From Symmachiella dynata (GTDB taxonomy: Bacteria > Planctomycetota > Planctomycetia > Planctomycetales > Planctomycetaceae), in assembly GCF_007747995.1 (NCBI RefSeq), contig NZ_CP036276.1, positions 6,252,001 to 6,316,000 on the forward strand: a DNA stretch of 64,000 nt, given 5' to 3'. Made by a program: the position numbers and the translations under genes. The notes below the pieces were generated by a model. It had not been told where the DNA came from and did not search any database. It worked only from the letters and a program-made list of their open reading frames with translations. Within the stretch, counting starts at the first letter, position 1; every line of letters begins with the position of its first letter. Below, piece by piece: positions 729 through 10,617 of the stretch.

Positions 729-3200
729 TTAGTGTTGGAACAGGAATTCCTTCGAGTTCAACAGGGCCCACCCGACGTCTTCCAACGTCATACGGCGTTC
801 TTTGTCCTTGGTGTCGCCGACATGTTTTATGGCGGCGGCCAATTCTTCTTCGGCAGGTTGGCGGCTGAGGGCAGCCAGGTACAACTCGGTGATGATTGTC
901 GCATTGTCTTTGCCGGCGGCGATGGCTGCGGCGATGCGGCCTTTGTCGTCACGCAACTTGTTGTGCACGACCGGTCCGTTGATCATTTGCAGGGCTTGCG
1001 ACAGGTTCGACTCGTTGCTGCGTTCGCAGGCACAGGCCATTTCGCGTTGCGGTTGGCCGAAGATCTTCAAGAAGTAGTGATCGGTGGGCGGATCAGGCAA
1101 TTCGACGGCACGGAAACCGACCGGCAGGCCTTTGAAGTTTTCCGGAACCGAAGTCACTTGGCAAATCGCGTCGAGCAACTGTTCGGCGCTGAGCATGCGG
1201 GTGCCGGCGTGCGAGTTGTAGATTTCGTCGGTGTCGTTGAAATCGTTTTTCCGCGAACTGAGCTGGTACGTCCGGCTGTTCATGATCGTGCGAATCGCCC
1301 ATTTGCGGCTGTAGTTGTTGGCAATGAAATCTTCAGCCAACTTGTCGAGCAGCGGCGCGTTCGAGGGGGGATTGGAATCGCGGAAGTCGTCGACCGGTTC
1401 GACGATGCCCCGTCCCATCAGATGTCCCCAAATGCGATTGACGGCCACCTTGGCGAAGAAAGGGTTGTCCGCAGCAGTCAGCCACTCGGCGAAGACTTCG
1501 CGGCGATCCTGGCCCTCGGGAACATCGACGTCTCCCTTGAGCAACAGGTGCGGCTTCATGGTTTGTCCGGTCCGCGGTTGTTTGACCTCACCGGAGTTGC
1601 TGACGAAGATGATTTCGTCGTCCTTCTCGAAACCGGTCTTGCGACCGACGCGAGCGAAGACGGCGCCAATGCCGTAGTAATTGTCCTGCGTCCACTTCTC
1701 GAAGGGATGGTTGTGGCATTTGGCACATTGAATGCGAATGCCGAGGAAAAGTTGGGCTGTGGTTTCGGTAGCGTCCAACGGATCGCGACTGGCCCGCCAA
1801 TAGTTGGCCGGCGGGTTCTCAAACACGCTGCCCTGTGCGGTTAACAGTTCCCGCGTGAATTGGTCAATCGGTTTGTCGGTACGGACAGCATCGTAAATCC
1901 AACGGCGGAATTTGTGCACGCCTTTGGCATTCAGCTTTTTGCTATTGGACCGCAGAATGTCGCCCCATTTGAGCGTCCAATACGATGCGAAATCGTCGGT
2001 GTCCAGCAAATGGTCGATCAGCAGAGCGCGTTTGTTTTCCTCCGAACGGCTGAGGAAGGCTTGTGATTCCTCAATCGTGGGGAGCCGTCCCGTCGTATCC
2101 AGGTAGGCGCGGCGGAGGAATTCCTCATCCGAACAAAGCTCCGATGGCAGGATTTGTAGTTGGTTCAGTTTGGCGAAGACCAGCGAATCGACGAAGTTGT
2201 TTTCCGGAGGATTGTTCCAGGCAAACCCTTCGACGTCATCCAAGAAGGTGATGTAGGAGGTCTCCATTTTGTCCAAATAGCGGACCAGCACGGCGGACTC
2301 GCCGCGTGTGTGTTTCGAAACCAGACCCGCGTCACCCACCGTGGCGACCGATTCGTTGGACGAACTATAGACGGCAATGGCCGTGACGTCGCGGACAGTG
2401 CCATCGCTGAAATGGGCATCGACGCGGAGTTGTTGGCGGTCGCTGCCGGGTTGGAAGACGCGTTTGCTAGGGAAGACTTCGACCTTCACGACGTCTGGGA
2501 CGGATTCGGCATCGAGCCGCAATCCTTCGCCAATCCAATCGCGGAGGATCTTGTAACCGGGGTCGGTTTTATGAAGTCGCCGTCCGCCGCCATGGGCGAC
2601 TTGCATCAGCGGTTTAGTGAGAATCAGACTTTCTTCCGGAGCCATCGCATTGGTGCGGCGACCGAAGAATTCGGTGCGAAGCGTGACGATATCGAGCGCC
2701 GGATCATAGCCACGCAGCGACAACCGAAAACCAGCTTTGCCGGAGGGGGAACCGTGGCAGGCACCCATGTTGCAACCCGCTTTGGAGAGGGCGGCGATGG
2801 TGCCGTTTTTGAAGCTGACCGGTGAGGGCGTTTCCATCCCGGCGACTGTGACGGCGATCTTGGCGGTTTGCCCGCCGGCGGTTGCGGTGATTTCCGCCGT
2901 TCCGTTGGCGACCGGCAGAGCGACACCGTCGACGACTTTGACGATGGCTTCGTCGGACGACGTGAACTCGGCGGCTCCCGTCAAATCCCGGACGTTGTTT
3001 TCGGAGAGGATGCCCGACACCTGCAATTGCTGCGTCGCCCGGGTCCCGTTGAGTTGGACCTGCGCCGGTTCCAAAACGAGTTGGGACGGATTGCCGATCT
3101 CTTGTCCGCCCCAAGCCACAGGGCATGAGGCCAAAAGCAGAGCCATGCCACAGCACATGATCAGGGACGGAAACCGGAGTTTCTGTTCGGGCAGCCGCAT
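729..3200 (-). CDS. DUF1549/DUF1553 domain protein with Ig-like and cytochrome-like modules
   Basis: This 823-residue exported protein belongs to the planctomycete/verrucomicrobial PSCyt family; its biochemical role is unknown. After a signal peptide (MRLPEQKLRFPSLIMCCGMA) come an Ig-like BIG2 domain (about 40-120), a degenerate cytochrome motif GCNMGACHG (about 141-149), a second Ig-like domain (about 235-310), DUF1549 (about 340-545, containing CAKCHNHPF, a CXXCH haem-type site) and DUF1553 to the end. The start at 3200 is chosen because it gives a clean signal peptide and has GGAG about 10 bases upstream; in-frame ATGs at 3215 and 3266 are less likely. It follows the PPC gene by 99 bases on the same strand, the usual pairing in planctomycetes, and ends at a strong terminator. 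Confidence 0.9.
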   Translation of the reverse strand: MRLPEQKLRFPSLIMCCGMALLLASCPVAWGGQEIGNPSQLVLEPAQVQLNGTRATQQLQVSGILSENNVRDLTGAAEFTSSDEAIVKVVDGVALPVANGTAEITATAGGQTAKIAVTVAGMETPSPVSFKNGTIAALSKAGCNMGACHGSPSGKAGFRLSLRGYDPALDIVTLRTEFFGRRTNAMAPEESLILTKPLMQVAHGGGRRLHKTDPGYKILRDWIGEGLRLDAESVPDVVKVEVFPSKRVFQPGSDRQQLRVDAHFSDGTVRDVTAIAVYSSSNESVATVGDAGLVSKHTRGESAVLVRYLDKMETSYITFLDDVEGFAWNNPPENNFVDSLVFAKLNQLQILPSELCSDEEFLRRAYLDTTGRLPTIEESQAFLSRSEENKRALLIDHLLDTDDFASYWTLKWGDILRSNSKKLNAKGVHKFRRWIYDAVRTDKPIDQFTRELLTAQGSVFENPPANYWRASRDPLDATETTAQLFLGIRIQCAKCHNHPFEKWTQDNYYGIGAVFARVGRKTGFEKDDEIIFVSNSGEVKQPRTGQTMKPHLLLKGDVDVPEGQDRREVFAEWLTAADNPFFAKVAVNRIWGHLMGRGIVEPVDDFRDSNPPSNAPLLDKLAEDFIANNYSRKWAIRTIMNSRTYQLSSRKNDFNDTDEIYNSHAGTRMLSAEQLLDAICQVTSVPENFKGLPVGFRAVELPDPPTDHYFLKIFGQPQREMACACERSNESNLSQALQMINGPVVHNKLRDDKGRIAAAIAAGKDNATIITELYLAALSRQPAEEELAAAIKHVGDTKDKERRMTLEDVGWALLNSKEFLFQH

Positions 3201-3299
3201 GACTCGTATCTCCATGTGATTTGAACCTAAATTCGTGTGCGGGGATTCCGTACCGGGCGATTTCACAATTCTGCGATTCGTTGTTGCCGTCTTACTCTG

Positions 3300-5603
3300 T
3301 TACTGCACCGTCAATTCAAAGGCTGGGGATTTCCCAGGAATTTTGGTTTTGCCAACCAGACCTTCACCCTGACTTATCGTATTTTTCACAATTCCGACAG
3401 CAGCGTCTGCAGCGGCAGTCAATTCGACTTCCACCTCGTTTTTGCCAGCCTCGATTGTGGCCGGTGCTGCGGTGACCCCTTTGGGTAGATTAACAAATGT
3501 TAATATGATGGGGCCAGTGTAAGCCGGGTTTCGCACGGCGGTGACCTTCATTTTGGCTTTGGCACCGCGTGCAATCGTTATATTTTCCGCTTTGAGCGAA
3601 TAGGGGGCCTGCAATCTGATGCGGATTCCCGGAGCGGCTTGTGAACTGCTGGCTTTGCCTTTTTTACCGGTTCCTTTGAGCACGATGGTGAATTCGCCCA
3701 GCGGCGCTTTGGTTTTGGCCGAGACAACGATGGCGATTTCGTTTTTGCCCTTCTCAATCGGCTTGGCTGCGACGGCAACTTCCGGGGGCAGACCAGCTTT
3801 GGCCGGCTCGACTGCCAGGGCGATTGCTTCGCCAAAGTCTTTGGTACGATTCGCCTTAACGGTCACCGTTGCACTGAGATCCGGGCCAAGGACGACCGTG
3901 GCCGGATCGCTGGTCAGAGTAAAGAAGTTTGGTGCAGGTGCTGCCGCTAGGGCGACTTTCTCCGACAGGTTGAGCGGAGGCCAGGGCATGGCACTGAATA
4001 GGCCTTGTTGGGCGGTGGTGGCGGTGGCAACGGCTCGGTAATCGGCGTTGCCAATCTTGGCTGTGCCGATGAGGCGAATCTCGGAGATTGCTCCAGCGGC
4101 GGTTGTGCCGTTTTGAATCGTGACGACCGCATTGGGTCGGCCGGGACCGATAACGGCTGGCGTTACGGTCACTCCCTCGGGCAGGTTTTCGCCGGAGATT
4201 TCAATCGGTCCGTTGTAGCCGCGGCGTGTGGCGGTCACAGTGACGAACGCGGTTCCGCTGGCCGGGACATTGATGGTTTCCCCAGAGGTCGACAAGTCAA
4301 AACCGGGCTGATAGGGGGCCGTGGTGATGCGGTAGGCGAACTCCGGTCCGCCGCGGCGATGCAGGTCTTGGACTTCCAAGACATAATCTCCATCAGCGGG
4401 AAAAGTGTGATTGATCAATGCGTCGTTTTTTCCGGAATCCTCGGCGATCGCCAATTGTTTGCCGGTCGCATCCAACAGACGGACGTGCAAGTCGGTTGGA
4501 GCTCCCTGGCGGCGGGTGATGCCGGTGAAGAGAAATCGCTGCCCTTTGGCTGCCTTAAAGATAAAGCGATCAATATCGCCGGGGGTTTCGAAACGCCCGT
4601 TGATGTTGGCTCCTAATTCGACGCGGGTCGCTTGCGACTGGTCGTTGTTCGGTTCTTGTTCGACTGCTTCATCCTGGGGACTGACAGCCAACACGGCGAA
4701 GCCGCTGCTTTGACCATCCGCAGATTTTGCAGCCACCGGGATCCACTTGATGGACGGGTCGGAGGGGACGTTGACGCTGACCGGTTGTGCGTCGCGGAGA
4801 TGGCTGCCGGCAAATCCAATTGTGGCGGTCGTGCCCGCTTTGGCCCCCATGGGATAGGGTGCACTGACGCAAGGGAAATCGCCAATGCGCAAACGATAGC
4901 GATGTCCTGCGCCACCGGTGTAACTGATGTCGCGTAGCTCGACGAAATATTCACCGGCGTCTTTGAAGGTGTGGCAGAGACGGGCATCGCCCATTGTGCC
5001 GGCTGCGTCGTCGCTATAGGCCAACTCGCGTCCGGTGGCATCCAAAATGCGAATCAACGGGTCGAGCGGCGAACCGATGCGGCGGGCCAGGACTTCAAAC
5101 GAAACTGTTTGTCCCTGCTCGACGGAGAACTTGAAGTAGTGCCGCGCGAGGGCATCGACTGTCCCATCGACCGCGATGGGTAAGCTTAACGGTTGAGCGG
5201 CACCGGTGGAGTTGTTTGGTTTTTTCTCAGCCACCGACGCCAAATCGTCGACCAGAAATAAGACCGGTTTAGAAACACCGGTGGGAGTCACGGCACGAAT
5301 TGCATGGATCCCGGCGGGGGTTCCTTCGGGAACGGTGATGCGATAGGTCACTTGAGCGGCGTTGGTGCCGTTGTCTTTCACATCGGGAGATAAGGCAGCT
5401 TCGGCTGGAAAGCTGGTCCAGAGTTGCGTGGGACCGGCAAGGCTGCCTCCCTTGAGCACAACATCGACGGCAGCGCCCGGCATAGCCGCTTGGGGGGAGG
5501 TTGAGGTAATGGACGGTTGTTGAGCGGAGACAATTGAGGGCAGGGCGATCACGGCACAGAGCAGGAACCCGGTCATCGAGAAAAAACGGGCGGAAACCGT
5601 CAT
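3300..5603 (-). CDS. PPC-domain exported protein
   Basis: This is a 767-residue secreted protein. A signal peptide (MTVSARFFSMTGFLLCAVIA, cleavage near SAQQ) is followed by beta-rich modules. Two regions (about 140-235 and 320-425) have the bacterial pre-peptidase C-terminal look: HYFKFSVEQGQTVSFEVLAR and DRFIFKAAKGQRFLFTG, each closing on a YFVELRD or YVLEVQD strand. The C-terminal third is Ig-like sheet repeats with no catalytic motif. The start at 5603 has GGAG upstream and gives the signal peptide; the frame stays open to 5777 without a good start. It is the first gene of a two-gene unit with the DUF1549/DUF1553 gene and probably acts with it at the cell surface (inference). Confidence 0.85.
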   Translation of the reverse strand: MTVSARFFSMTGFLLCAVIALPSIVSAQQPSITSTSPQAAMPGAAVDVVLKGGSLAGPTQLWTSFPAEAALSPDVKDNGTNAAQVTYRITVPEGTPAGIHAIRAVTPTGVSKPVLFLVDDLASVAEKKPNNSTGAAQPLSLPIAVDGTVDALARHYFKFSVEQGQTVSFEVLARRIGSPLDPLIRILDATGRELAYSDDAAGTMGDARLCHTFKDAGEYFVELRDISYTGGAGHRYRLRIGDFPCVSAPYPMGAKAGTTATIGFAGSHLRDAQPVSVNVPSDPSIKWIPVAAKSADGQSSGFAVLAVSPQDEAVEQEPNNDQSQATRVELGANINGRFETPGDIDRFIFKAAKGQRFLFTGITRRQGAPTDLHVRLLDATGKQLAIAEDSGKNDALINHTFPADGDYVLEVQDLHRRGGPEFAYRITTAPYQPGFDLSTSGETINVPASGTAFVTVTATRRGYNGPIEISGENLPEGVTVTPAVIGPGRPNAVVTIQNGTTAAGAISEIRLIGTAKIGNADYRAVATATTAQQGLFSAMPWPPLNLSEKVALAAAPAPNFFTLTSDPATVVLGPDLSATVTVKANRTKDFGEAIALAVEPAKAGLPPEVAVAAKPIEKGKNEIAIVVSAKTKAPLGEFTIVLKGTGKKGKASSSQAAPGIRIRLQAPYSLKAENITIARGAKAKMKVTAVRNPAYTGPIILTFVNLPKGVTAAPATIEAGKNEVEVELTAAADAAVGIVKNTISQGEGLVGKTKIPGKSPAFELTVQ

Positions 5604-7502: not shown

Positions 7503-8414
7503 ATGAAACGCACGTCAATCGGATCATGGGCCTACACGATCGGACCCTATGCCGACAATCCTGTCGACTTTGAGACCGTTTGCACCAAACTCAAGGAACT
7601 CGGATTCGACGGCGTCGAATTGGGTGGATTTCCCCCGCATCCCAATCCAGATGACTTGCCGGAAAAATCGCAGCGTGATGAACTCGTTGGCAAGATGAAA
7701 GAATGGGGACTCGACTTCAGCGGGTTGGCCGCCAATCTGTGGGGCGAGGAGCTGATCAATACGGCTGACCAGTCGAAATACATCGCCGAATTCGCCAAGA
7801 ACGCCCAATTCTGCGAGGACGTGGGCATTAAAGGGATTCGTGTCGATTGCGTACAACCACCGACCATTCTGGATGACGTCGACTACGACACGGCGTTTCA
7901 GCGTGTGACCGAAACCTGGAAAAAGTGCTGCCCGATCGCCGCCGATCACGGTCTGTACATCACCTGGGAATGCGAACCGGGGTTTGCGTTTAATAAACCG
8001 TCGGATGCGGTGAAGATCCTCGATGCGATTCCGAACGAGAATTTCGGTCTGCAATACGATACCTGTCACGGTCAAATGGTGGCCGTCAACGGGTCGCGGC
8101 ATTATGGTGAAAAAGAGATTTTGCCGGGCGGACAATTGGAGTTCATCAGCATGGTCTCGGGCCGGATCAATCACATTCACCTGATCGATTCGGACAACAA
8201 ATGCCACAAGGACGACAACGGCGAAGACGAAACGAGCAGCCATCCGCCATTCGGCGACGGCGTGTTGGATTTCGACGAAATCGTGCCCGCCCTGGCGAAA
8301 GAAAAATTGCCACACGACTGGTGGACGATCGACCTCTGTTTCTGGCCCAACGCCTGGGACGCCACCGCCAAATGCAAAAAGGCACTGGACGAATTGGTCG
8401 CCAAATACGGTTGA
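7503..8414 (+). CDS. Sugar phosphate isomerase/epimerase family TIM-barrel protein
   Basis: This is a 303-residue member of the xylose isomerase-like TIM-barrel family (AP endonuclease 2 superfamily). Supporting segments are LGFDGVELGGFPPHPNP (first strand, substrate loop), IKGIRVDCV, YITWECEPGF (probable metal-binding Glu), FGLQYDTCHG (Asp/His metal pair) and INHIHLIDSD (His). A purine-rich stretch (AAAAAAAGGGAAC, ending 11 bases before the ATG) serves as a ribosome site. Its stop codon overlaps the first base-paired arm of REP element copy 1 (TTGAGCACGGCTCAA). The next co-directional metabolic gene, the Gfo/Idh oxidoreductase, lies about 1 kb away beyond the RAYT locus, so the operon may have been split by it. 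Confidence 0.85.
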   Translation: MKRTSIGSWAYTIGPYADNPVDFETVCTKLKELGFDGVELGGFPPHPNPDDLPEKSQRDELVGKMKEWGLDFSGLAANLWGEELINTADQSKYIAEFAKNAQFCEDVGIKGIRVDCVQPPTILDDVDYDTAFQRVTETWKKCCPIAADHGLYITWECEPGFAFNKPSDAVKILDAIPNENFGLQYDTCHGQMVAVNGSRHYGEKEILPGGQLEFISMVSGRINHIHLIDSDNKCHKDDNGEDETSSHPPFGDGVLDFDEIVPALAKEKLPHDWWTIDLCFWPNAWDATAKCKKALDELVAKYG

Positions 8415-8545
8415 GCACGGCTCAATCCATCACAGCGAGAATCCCCGTAAACGGGGATCTGGCCTCATGTCACGGTCACGTATACCCCGCCGTAAACGGC
8501 GGGGCTAATACCGCTGGCGCGGGCAAGCCCGGTGAACCGGGCTGT
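8413..8545 (+). repeat. REP multi-hairpin element, copy 1
   Basis: This 133-base element is built of successive palindromes: GAGC-ACG-GCTC, ATCCCCGTAAACGGGGAT (8441-8458), CCCCGCCGTAAACGGCGGGG (8485-8504) and AGCCCGGTGAACCGGGCT (8526-8543). It matches 9240-9372 in length and order; only a spacer of about 23 bases and a few single positions differ. It begins inside the stop codon of the epimerase gene. Confidence 0.9.
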
Positions 8546-8663
8546 TGGCGGCCGGTGGCCTGAATTTGAAATCGTTAATACCGAATACATTCGTCAACCA
8601 ATATTGATCGACAGGAGACGTCAGATACGCCGGGGATGTGTCTGACAACCTACGGATTTGACA

Positions 8664-8790
8664 ACAGTCCCGTTTACGGGACTTGGCCGCGATAGCGGTC
8701 ATAGCCCCGCCATTTATGGCGGGGTTGTCTGTGGACAGAACCATTCTGGGGAGCCTCGTTTACGGGGCTTCTCGCCGTAACGGCTTTAGC
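8664..8790 (-). repeat. REP multi-hairpin element, inverted copy
   Basis: Read on the minus strand this is a diverged third copy of the same element, with the modules in the same order: a CGCCGTAACGGCT arm, AGCCCCGTAAACGAGGCT, CCCCGCCATAAATGGCGGGG, then GACCGCTATCGCGG and AGTCCCGTAAACGGGACT. Hairpins sit at 8666-8683, 8705-8724 and 8752-8769. It faces copy 1 and lies just before the transposase start. Bases 8546-8663 between the copies contain nothing I can identify. Confidence 0.8.
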
Positions 8791-8813
8791 CCTTGCTCGC
8801 GGGGGAAATCGGC

Positions 8814-9239
8814 ATGTCGCGGAATTTTTACAGCGAGATCAATCTGCACATCGTCTGGCATACGAAACAGAGTCGCCCATTGCTGTCACTGGAAATCGAA
8901 ACCGCAACGCACGCATTTTTGCGAAAGCGCTTGGTCGATTCGGAGGGCGTGTACGTCCACGAGATCGGTGGAACAGAAAATCACGTACATATTTGTTTGA
9001 CTGTGCTGCCGACGGTATTGGTTAGCGAATTGATCGGGCAACTCAAAGGGGCCTCGGCCCACGAGATGAATCAGAATCAGCCGACACGGGACAAGGTCCT
9101 GCAGTGGCAATCGGGCTACGGAGTCGTTAGTTTTGGAACCAAGGATCTGCCCTGGGTCCGCGAATATATACGGAATCAAAAACAGCATCATGCGGCAGGG
9201 AGCGTGCATGAGCGTTTGGAACGGATGACGCAGGATTGA
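8814..9239 (+). CDS. REP-associated tyrosine transposase (RAYT, IS200/IS605-like Y1)
   Basis: This 141-residue protein is a single-domain Y1 HUH transposase. It has the HUH motif HVH (residues 57-59, in GGTENHVHICL) and the candidate nucleophile Tyr118 in VREYIRNQKQHH, and it begins with the family signature NLHIVWHTKQ. GGGGGA lies 8 bases before the ATG at 8814, which supports this start over an in-frame one at 8793. RAYTs are single-strand DNA transposases that process REP hairpins and are usually domesticated single-copy genes. The copy is intact, and its stop is followed at once by REP copy 2. No accessory TnpB-like gene is present. Confidence 0.92.
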   Translation: MSRNFYSEINLHIVWHTKQSRPLLSLEIETATHAFLRKRLVDSEGVYVHEIGGTENHVHICLTVLPTVLVSELIGQLKGASAHEMNQNQPTRDKVLQWQSGYGVVSFGTKDLPWVREYIRNQKQHHAAGSVHERLERMTQD

Positions 9240-9372
9240 GAGCACGGCTCAAGCCATCACAGCGAGAATCCCCGTAAACGGGGATCGAGGTACACGCCAA
9301 ACCATCGATTACCCCGCCGTAAACGGCGGGGCTAATACCGCTATCGCGGGTAAGCCCGGTGAACCGGGCTGT
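9240..9372 (+). repeat. REP multi-hairpin element, copy 2
   Basis: This is a direct-orientation copy of 8413-8545 with the same length and the same hairpins; the ATCCCCGTAAACGGGGAT and CCCCGCCGTAAACGGCGGGG hairpins are identical, while the inter-hairpin spacer is unrelated. It starts immediately after the TGA of the transposase gene. Hairpins conserved while the spacer varies is what is expected of REP/BIME elements. Confidence 0.9.
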
Positions 9373-9459: not shown

Positions 9460-10617
9460 ATGACCAAACCGTTGAATATTGGCCTGATCGGCTACGGATT
9501 TATGGGCCGGACGCATTCCAATGCGTATCGACAGGTCAGCAAGTTTTTTGATCTGGAGTATCAACCGGTTCTCAAAGCGTGTTGCGCCCGCAATGAGGAA
9601 AAGATCAAAGAGTTCGCGGAAAACTGGGGTTGGGAATCCTATGAGACCGATTGGCGGAAACTGATTGCCCGCGATGACATCGATGCGATCGACATCGGCT
9701 CGCCGAACAATACGCATTACGAAATGGCACTTGCCGCTGCTGAAGCGGGGAAAATGATTCTCTGTGAGAAGCCGCTGGCGATGGATGTGGCGCAGGCCGA
9801 AGCGATGACCGCTGCCGTGGAAAAAGCGGGCGTGGCCAATATGGTTTGGTACAACTACCGCCGCGTCCCGGCCATTACGCTCGCTCACCAACTGGTCAAA
9901 GAAGGCCGCATAGGTCGACCGTTTCATTATCGCGCGACCTATCTGCAGGACTGGACGATCGCCGAAGACGTTCCGCAAGGAGGAGCGACGTTATGGCGGT
10001 TGGATGCGGCTGTTGCCGGGAGCGGCGTGACGGGGGACCTGTTGGCCCACTCGATCGATACGGCGATTTGGCTCAACGGCCCGATCACCTCAGTCAGTGC
10101 TGCTACGGAAACGTTCGTCAAAGAACGGATGCATCAGGACACGGGCGAAATGCAACCGGTCAGCATCGACGATGCCTGCATGTTTCTGGCGCGTTTTGAA
10201 AACGGCTCGATGGGGACCTTTGAGAGTTCGCGTTATGCACGCGGCCGTAAGAATTACAACACGTTCGAAATGAACGGCGAAGATGGTTCGGTCTTCTTCG
10301 ATCTGGAAGACCCGCAGATTTTGCAATTCTTCGAATACGCCAATCCCACCACCGGCAAGAAAGTCGAAGACCACTTGACCGGTTGGCGGCGGATTCACGT
10401 GACGAACTTTGAGCATCCCTACATGGACCGCTGGTGGGTGCCGGGTTGCACGATCGGCTACGAACACACCTTCACCAACGCCCTGTCCGATTTCCTCAAA
10501 GGTCTGGAAACCGGCGAACCAGCGCAACCCACCTTCCGCGATGCCTTGCAAACACAAAAAGTCTGCGATGCCGTGCTGGAAAGCGCCCGGGAACGGATTT
10601 GGATTGATATCAACTAG
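9460..10617 (+). CDS. Gfo/Idh/MocA family oxidoreductase
   Basis: This 385-residue NAD(P)-dependent dehydrogenase is probably cytoplasmic (no signal). The N-terminal Rossmann fold carries [13 protein letters not shown] (residues 7-19), the EKP motif is in [11 protein letters not shown] (about 105), and the C-terminal alpha/beta domain contains [14 protein letters not shown] (about 192-205; Asp and His at the expected catalytic helix). It lies downstream of the cupin and sugar isomerase genes in the same direction, so it may oxidise a related sugar or inositol, with the RAYT locus inserted between them. An inverted repeat follows its stop. Confidence 0.9.

Follow-up and report, generated by a model that had tools for sequence, protein, structure and literature searches.

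A probable REPtron-like Y1 transposase locus with compound, asymmetric multi-hairpin ends in Symmachiella dynata

What kind of system is a single Y1 transposase gene set among large palindromic repeats, and do the gene and the repeats belong together? We address this question for a locus in the window analysed here, the 64,000-nucleotide stretch at positions 6252001-6316000 of the closed 7.77 Mb genome of Symmachiella dynata. An initial annotation described the locus as a RAYT embedded in three copies of one four-hairpin REP element. That three module copies surround an intact Y1 transposase gene is confirmed by the repeat identities, the intact ORF, a match to PF01797 and folding relative to shuffles. 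Between the two flanking genes, the order is a right-end-type module on the forward strand, 118 nt, a left-end-type module on the reverse strand, the Y1 gene on the forward strand and a right-end module on the forward strand, such that the transposase gene sits exactly between a left end (LE) and a right end (RE) (Table 1). The nearest NCBIfam model of the flanking oxidoreductase is levoglucosan dehydrogenase, with a score under that model's cut-off.

Table 1. Features of the transposase locus, in positions of the window; R1 is a covariance model of hairpins 3 and 4
Feature	Positions	Strand	Evidence
Xylose-isomerase-like TIM barrel protein gene, flanking	7503-8414	+	PF01261, E 3.1e-33
Extra right-end module (copy 1)	8413-8545	+	R1 match 8484-8544; abuts isomerase stop codon (8412-8414)
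Left end (LE), inverted module (copy 2), type-1 hairpin 4 (AGTCCCGTAAACGGGACT read on - strand)	about 8664-8790	-	R1 match 8665-8725, E 3.6e-15
Y1 (HuH) transposase gene, 141 aa	8814-9239	+	PF01797, E 1e-23; NF033573 above cut-off
Right end (RE), type-2 hairpin 4 (copy 3)	9240-9372	+	R1 match 9311-9371, E 2.6e-17
RE hairpin 2	9268-9285		
RE hairpin 3	9312-9331		
RE hairpin 4	9353-9370		
Gfo/Idh/MocA oxidoreductase gene, flanking	9460-10617	+	PF01408, PF22725, PF02894

The two direct copies (copies 1 and 3) are 86% identical over 133 nt, with 95% (63 nt) and 98% (47 nt) identity in their hairpin blocks, and the inverted copy 2 (8664-8791 in this comparison) matches at 73%. Folded as single-stranded DNA, copies 1, 2 and 3 have z values of -4.3, -4.86 and -5.18, respectively, and for each of them 0/200 shuffles were as stable as the real module. 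From the inside outwards, a module consists of hairpin 1 (GGCTNAAGCC-like), a CAGCGAGAA-like stretch, hairpin 2, a spacer, hairpin 3 (CCCCGCCGTAAACGGCGGGG), CTAATA, a small hairpin and hairpin 4. The four hairpins first described are thus present, but each copy also contains a fifth, minor one (CCGC..GCGG) located between the third and the fourth. Hairpin 4 exists in two types, type 1 at the left end (AGTCCCGTAAACGGGACT) and type 2 at the right end (GCCCGGTGAACCGGGC or ACGCCGGTNAACCGGCGT). Rather than being a merely diverged copy, as first proposed, the inverted module is a distinct end type and one partner in 11/11 outward-pointing pairs of the genome, and the locus is better described as a left end and a right end plus an additional right-end module than as one element in three copies.

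The hairpins are also supported by covariation. In an alignment of the outer half-module (30 of 31 pattern-derived sequences), 7 of the 14 base pairs vary in both partners, and pairing is seen in 91.0% of cells versus 80.7% in shuffles, with 0/500 shuffles reaching either value; the structure was drawn from the same sequences and is favoured by that alone. For further pair types, the alignment did not exceed shuffles (10 versus 10.4, with 424/500 shuffles as high). At gathering thresholds, Rfam gave no match within the window, and therefore no described RNA family accounts for the hairpins.

Using R1, we find 42 matches in the genome at E <= 0.01. The 33 strong outer half-modules (E <= 2.3e-11) are spread over 21 sites, while 8 of the 9 weak matches (3.9e-5 to 3.9e-3) lie within or overlap units already counted. 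A copy search returned 32 places, bearing out the expectation that the element has copies elsewhere in the genome. Twelve neighbouring pairs lie within 800 nt of each other, and in 11 of these hairpin 4 points outwards, the twelfth consisting of window copies 1 and 2. All 11 outward pairs, the gene-bearing pair of the window and ten gene-free ones, are made of one type-1 and one type-2 end; given a genomic tally of 15 type-1 and 18 type-2 ends, the chance of this result is near 0.0006. The inner gap is 140-148 nt in the seven full pairs, 93, 93 and 75 nt in the three shortened pairs, and 586 nt in the window pair because of the gene inside. The ten gene-free outward units look like non-autonomous, REPIN-like units. 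At 9/21 sites, there is no full outward pair or just a single module, for which decay is assumed. One pair of near-identical shortened units, ~1.2 kb apart at G000:C1 2712416-2712630 and 2713660-2713874, is the sole unit pair with clearly alike spacers and, judging by the sequence, looks like a local duplication.

The initial annotation also placed the start of copies at a stop codon or immediately behind one. This is true of the two direct copies (stops at 8412-8414 and 9237-9239) but not as a general rule: at 20/21 sites (all but 718k) checked with crude ORF calling, several with short overlapping ORFs, placement is mostly between ORFs, and the window site alone touches an ORF 3' end. On this ORF context, we rejected stop-codon targeting as a rule. 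By eye, no conserved tetranucleotide is seen flanking the ends on the outside, and no cleavage motif emerged.

Within full units, the hairpin 2 types differ between the two arms (GCCTCG versus CCCCCG, ATCCCC or ACTCCC, e.g., in L082, L074 and L092). The types are mixed in 8/8 measured units here and in 3/3 of a sister genome (G152), yet tied to neither side, which excludes hairpin 2 as a left/right marker; differing arms may avoid long perfect inverted repeats. Alike stretches are found 5' of hairpins, CGAGAA before hairpin 2 and CTAAT before the small hairpin (the latter also in the Terriglobia locus L034), and these are candidate guide sequences.

The transposase ORF is intact, with a start at 8793 or 8814 and an end at 9239, and its product contains H57-V58-H59 (NHVH), W98-Q99 and Y118 within YIRNQKQHH. 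Canonical RAYTs (class 2) are described as having a Y---NP motif and GT[AG]G-headed REPs (PMC6006769). The window protein has the HuH motif and catalytic Tyr of this class (HVH, YIRNQ), and its gene lies between inverted dispersed repeats, but YIRNQKQHH takes the place of Y---NP and, judged by eye, none of 54 modules has a GT[AG]G head at its hairpin feet. NCBIfam instead places the protein with the IS200/IS605 family transposases (NF033573, 79.5 bits versus a cut-off of 55), and its solved structural relatives in the PDB are IS200/IS605-type TnpA chains, with which the HVH and tyrosine regions align. The RAYT label is in the strict sense not supported. By its motifs, the protein carries the signature of TnpA-Y1 subclass 1.2 rather than that of a canonical RAYT: this subclass, of ~150 aa and low copy number and near the IS200 transposases, is characterised by HuH (given as DH[IV]H), WQ and Y---Q--HH (PMC6006769), all of which are present here, the first as NHVH. 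A C-terminal domain specific to subclass 1.2 is a further criterion; the C-terminus of the window protein stops soon after the Y motif with an HERLE tail, unlike those of L032, L033 and L045-L067.

Consistent with the low copy number of subclass 1.2, the genome contains one close copy of the transposase; two further Y1 genes encode proteins of 29% and 26% identity. These distant genes (L032 and L033, at G000:C1 about 1408910 and 6836759) are each flanked by their own, different inverted hairpin arrays, and the L032 flank matches 19 places in the genome, constituting a separate repeat family.

Relatives of the transposase are common in the family, with a Y1 match at E <= 0.001 in 86/170 genomes; at E <= 1e-30, a match is found in 2 of a spread of 392 phylum genomes. 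Y---Q--HH is present by pattern in 34/37 fetched proteins, the three exceptions being L034, in which Phe replaces the Tyr, L044, whose sequence becomes different beyond the W motif, and L065, which has RH instead of HH. In a FastTree tree of 37 proteins (L044 excluded, L163 added), the window protein is sister to L034 from a Terriglobia contig, its nearest relative by identity (59%), inside a clade with L039-L043 and L163 (support 0.996). We then compared flanks at the 34/37 loci with enough flanking sequence, which are the best-scoring loci and no random sample. Perfect stems of at least 8 bp occur at means of 1.06 upstream and 0.76 downstream per 300 nt. The corresponding means are 0.04 and 0.03 for shuffled flanks, and 0.03 and 0.06 for stretches at a distance of 900-1200 nt. 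Such stems are found on both sides at 17/34 loci, with two on both sides at 5/34, and in 28/34 the upstream flank, compared with the reverse complement of the downstream one, scores above the 95th percentile of comparisons between loci (medians of 35.75 and 9.0).

The hairpins at these loci differ in type. R1 recognises both gene ends of L034 (51.7 and 36.1 bits), scores at most 16 bits on the other loci of the 36 and finds nothing in L163. In L040-L042 and L163, CCACCAGCT..AGCTGGTGG-like hairpins occupy the corresponding position, with 22-26 nt to the next hairpin inside. Hairpin type tracks the transposase tree in the clade examined. The L034 gene itself (3001-3411) has Phe at the catalytic Tyr position (FVRNQKEHH) and two left-end-like arrays upstream, and is either inactive or an assembly error.

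An alternative explanation is a conventional IS200-type insertion sequence, autonomous and mobile together with its gene; the modules would then be copies of it that have decayed or suffered deletions (MITEs), and there would be no lasting partnership. The IS200/IS605-type NCBIfam and PDB relatives would fit such an element, as would the gene's position between two defined, differing ends and a nearest relative in another phylum. However, there is one close gene copy versus 33 half-modules, each end has several hairpins and not one, and Y---Q--HH marks a low-copy subclass that the classification in PMC6006769 sets apart from IS elements. We consider this explanation improbable.

Two sister genomes provide a view of the locus without the gene. 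G151, with 86-96% DNA identity at shared loci, has no Y1 match in its genome, and G152, with 77-79% identity at the window locus, has one distant Y1 match (3.1e-9). R1 nevertheless detects modules in both, with 7 strong and 2 weak matches in G151 and, in G152, 14 strong and 6 weak ones. The initial annotation had named a transposase present at every orthologous locus, with unrelated flanks, as evidence against its reading; instead, the orthologous locus in both genomes (L103 of G151, L116 of G152) has one right-end module directly 3' of the isomerase stop, without the left end and without the gene. The single G151 module has the spacer of copy 1 and a small hairpin like that of copy 3, and the direct repeat in the window fits both a crossover between copies 1 and 3 with loss in the sister and a gain here, in which the gene unit recombined into a module already in place. 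In its inner part (8413-8460, hairpins 1 and 2), copy 1 is closer to copy 3 than to L103 while its spacer is orthologous, which suggests local conversion between copies 1 and 3.

Alternatively, the modules could serve chiefly as regulatory elements or as structures at mRNA ends (terminators or stabilisers) under host selection, with the transposase a chance neighbour. A module lies directly 3' of the isomerase stop in 3/3 genus genomes, 6/7 strong modules of G151 are at loci where the present genome also has one, and several sites are between convergent ORFs (by crude ORF calling), all of which speak for this view. Yet the same correspondence holds for only 1/10 sites in G152, LE and RE are paired in 11/11 cases, and the module type tracks the transposase across phyla; we regard this alternative as very unlikely. 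A second locus shared with G152 (L098/L029) was rejected because the neighbouring proteins are merely 46% identical, versus 88-93% at the true shared locus. Pairs in G152 are again outward (4/4) and 3 are mixed by the pattern used, the fourth (C15:382k) being scored as type 2/type 2, though one hairpin 4 is type-1-like by eye.

Comparison with G151 further reveals units that are reduced or missing there. Unit lengths here versus in G151 are 339 nt versus 0 (5582k), 229 versus 0 (1227k), 442 versus 4 (7416k), 394 versus 16 (3506k) and 511 versus 163 (2654k), and there is an internal deletion at 5969k. None of these comparisons within the genus gave a clean empty site with joined flanks, and at five loci the borders of the difference from G151 lie elsewhere than at hairpin 4, so that these loci do not prove insertion. 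The G151 junction at 5582k falls in a short stretch of similarity, and a deletion in G151 fits too.

At E <= 1e-4 and with stricter filters, R1 matches 6/170 family genomes, the three of the genus and G061, G070 and G084; a close transposase is found in the window's genome alone among these six, with two of the three other-genus genomes being fragmentary assemblies. The best listed transposase identities are 32% in G061 and 29% in G070. In these two genomes of other genera, there are outward R1-recognised pairs (L159, L162 and L160), and their assemblies contain no close transposase.

The spacer between hairpins 2 and 3 behaves differently from the hairpins. As first noted, its sequence is unrelated between the window copies, although its length is not 23 bases but 26, 27 and 26 nt. 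Measurable in 39/54 modules, it is 25-30 nt long here (n=25), 26-27 nt in G151 (n=2) and 21-24 nt in G152 (n=12), and 21-26 nt around relatives with other hairpins. The 25 spacers here are about as unlike one another as shuffled ones (0.384 versus 0.370), with one copy pair at 70% or above and, by eye, short stretches common to a few modules (left ends of 5582k and 3506k), while outer half-modules of one type have a mean identity of 80% and a maximum of 98% between loci. REPINs offer a precedent for a spacer that is constant in length but not in sequence (PMC3116915). Hairpin 3 differs by genome in its inner pair, which is G-C in 29/33 modules here and 4/7 in G151 and A-T in 14/14 in G152, among them the module that follows the orthologous isomerase gene.

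One reading of these patterns, which we hold only tentatively and think unlikely, is that hairpins rather than whole units are copied, with cassettes homogenised per genome as dialects with paired changes and the spacer keeping its length alone. The transposase would then mediate single-strand exchange of hairpins between sites and gauge the spacer. With one locus in common with G152, the evidence for concerted change is thin, and strong selection on the hairpins of old copies could give much the same picture. The earlier proposal that selection or gene conversion acts on structure fits the covariation and spacer data with either cause.

Taken together, we consider it likely that the locus is a REPtron-like unit, in which an IS200/IS605-related transposase of the subclass 1.2 type lies between multi-hairpin ends and is accompanied by gene-free REPIN-like units, which are probably internally deleted derivatives. 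In this respect the initial annotation, with its Y1 transposase and inverted palindromic modules dispersed through the genome, was right in kind, and the sister genomes lack the gene at this locus. The 33 strong half-modules, the mixed composition of 11/11 pairs, the one close gene copy, the covariation, a hairpin type that follows the tree, and the stem-rich flanks of relatives, inverted-similar at 28/34 loci, argue for this assignment, as does the fact that the close gene has its own repeat family and the distant Y1 gene of the genome a different one. Against it stand spacers common to few copies, whereas copying of whole units predicts sharing in young ones, modules without a close transposase in 5/6 module-bearing family genomes, and the combination of no clean empty site, no flanking tetranucleotide and 9/21 incomplete sites. 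From the biochemistry of IS200/IS605 and REP systems, as presented in PMC8266576, we infer single-strand recognition, tyrosine cleavage and action in trans. When the DNA is single-stranded, e.g., on the lagging-strand template, the ends would fold into hairpins and be recognised by the transposase, which would cut and rejoin single strands through Tyr118; LE-RE units would be moved or exchanged in trans, whereas the gene itself would remain single-copy. Genomes without the gene, such as those of the two sister species, would retain modules that partly decay.

When compared to REPtron/RAYT systems with their REPINs and BIMEs, as described in PMC2817692, PMC3116915 and PMC8266576, the locus shares a single-copy Y1 gene in inverted palindromes, gene-free intergenic inverted doublets, compensatory changes, a variable spacer of fixed length and repeats that track the transposase. 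Two inverted repeats as a dispersed unit, one feature of a REPIN, are seen here in 11 outward pairs. Movement or excision of such units, the other feature, is predicted here; the presence/absence differences between species have unclear borders. In contrast to the RAYT systems described there, Y---NP is absent, no GT[AG]G head was seen, the left and right end types differ, the ends are ~130 nt with five hairpins rather than one hairpin of 20-40 nt, and copies number in the tens rather than hundreds. Subclass 2.6 is described as likewise being without a GT[AG]G head (PMC6006769). The protein family, fold relatives and differing ends are shared with IS200/IS605 (subclass 1.1), from which the present system differs in having more than one hairpin at each end, a single gene copy, numerous units without the gene and Y---Q--HH rather than Y---Q alone. 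TnpA-Y1 class 3 is similar in its occurrence in Planctomycetes and Acidobacteria, its several atypical structures around the gene and its repeats elsewhere in the genome, but is characterised by YV[VI][AENY]EQ, W[TA] and a CnGA foot (PMC6006769); with WQ and YIRNQKQHH, the window protein does not match this class. The GTAG- and CGTC-tagged single-hairpin repeats described from genomes including Planctomycetes (PMC3733652) are unlike the present modules.

The closest protein match, subclass 1.2, is the most informative comparison. Motifs, low copy number and closeness to IS200 are alike, whereas Quentin et al. 2018 (PMC6006769) tabulate this subclass with REP 'no', generally without terminal secondary structures and mostly from Cyanobacteria and Bacteroidetes; here, the ends are built of compound hairpins, the repeats form a dispersed family, and such transposases are frequent in this bacterial family. 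The window protein also lacks the longer C-terminal tail of most other fetched relatives. Among the open-licence papers listed by our literature searches, we found no report of repeats tied to subclass 1.2. The system thus looks, from comparative sequence data, like a REPtron/REPIN-type system whose transposase belongs to the IS200 branch (subclass 1.2-type) and whose ends are compound, asymmetric and multi-hairpin. It would represent a further branch of a known bacterial partnership between transposase and repeats, not a system of a new kind. A subclass tabulated as repeat-free has inverted palindromic flanks at most loci examined in this family and dispersed repeats in the present genome. 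If it works as proposed, a RAYT-like partnership of transposase and repeats would exist in a second Y1 branch, with asymmetric ends of multiple hairpins. The three genus species, with the gene in one, absent in two and modules in all, form a natural series on what keeps repeats alive. Finally, the flanks of the 1227k and 1952k sites contain two more short dispersed repeats (GGGAGGGCGAGGCTCC..-like and CTGGCGG..CCGCCAG-like), which are present in many places here and in G151.
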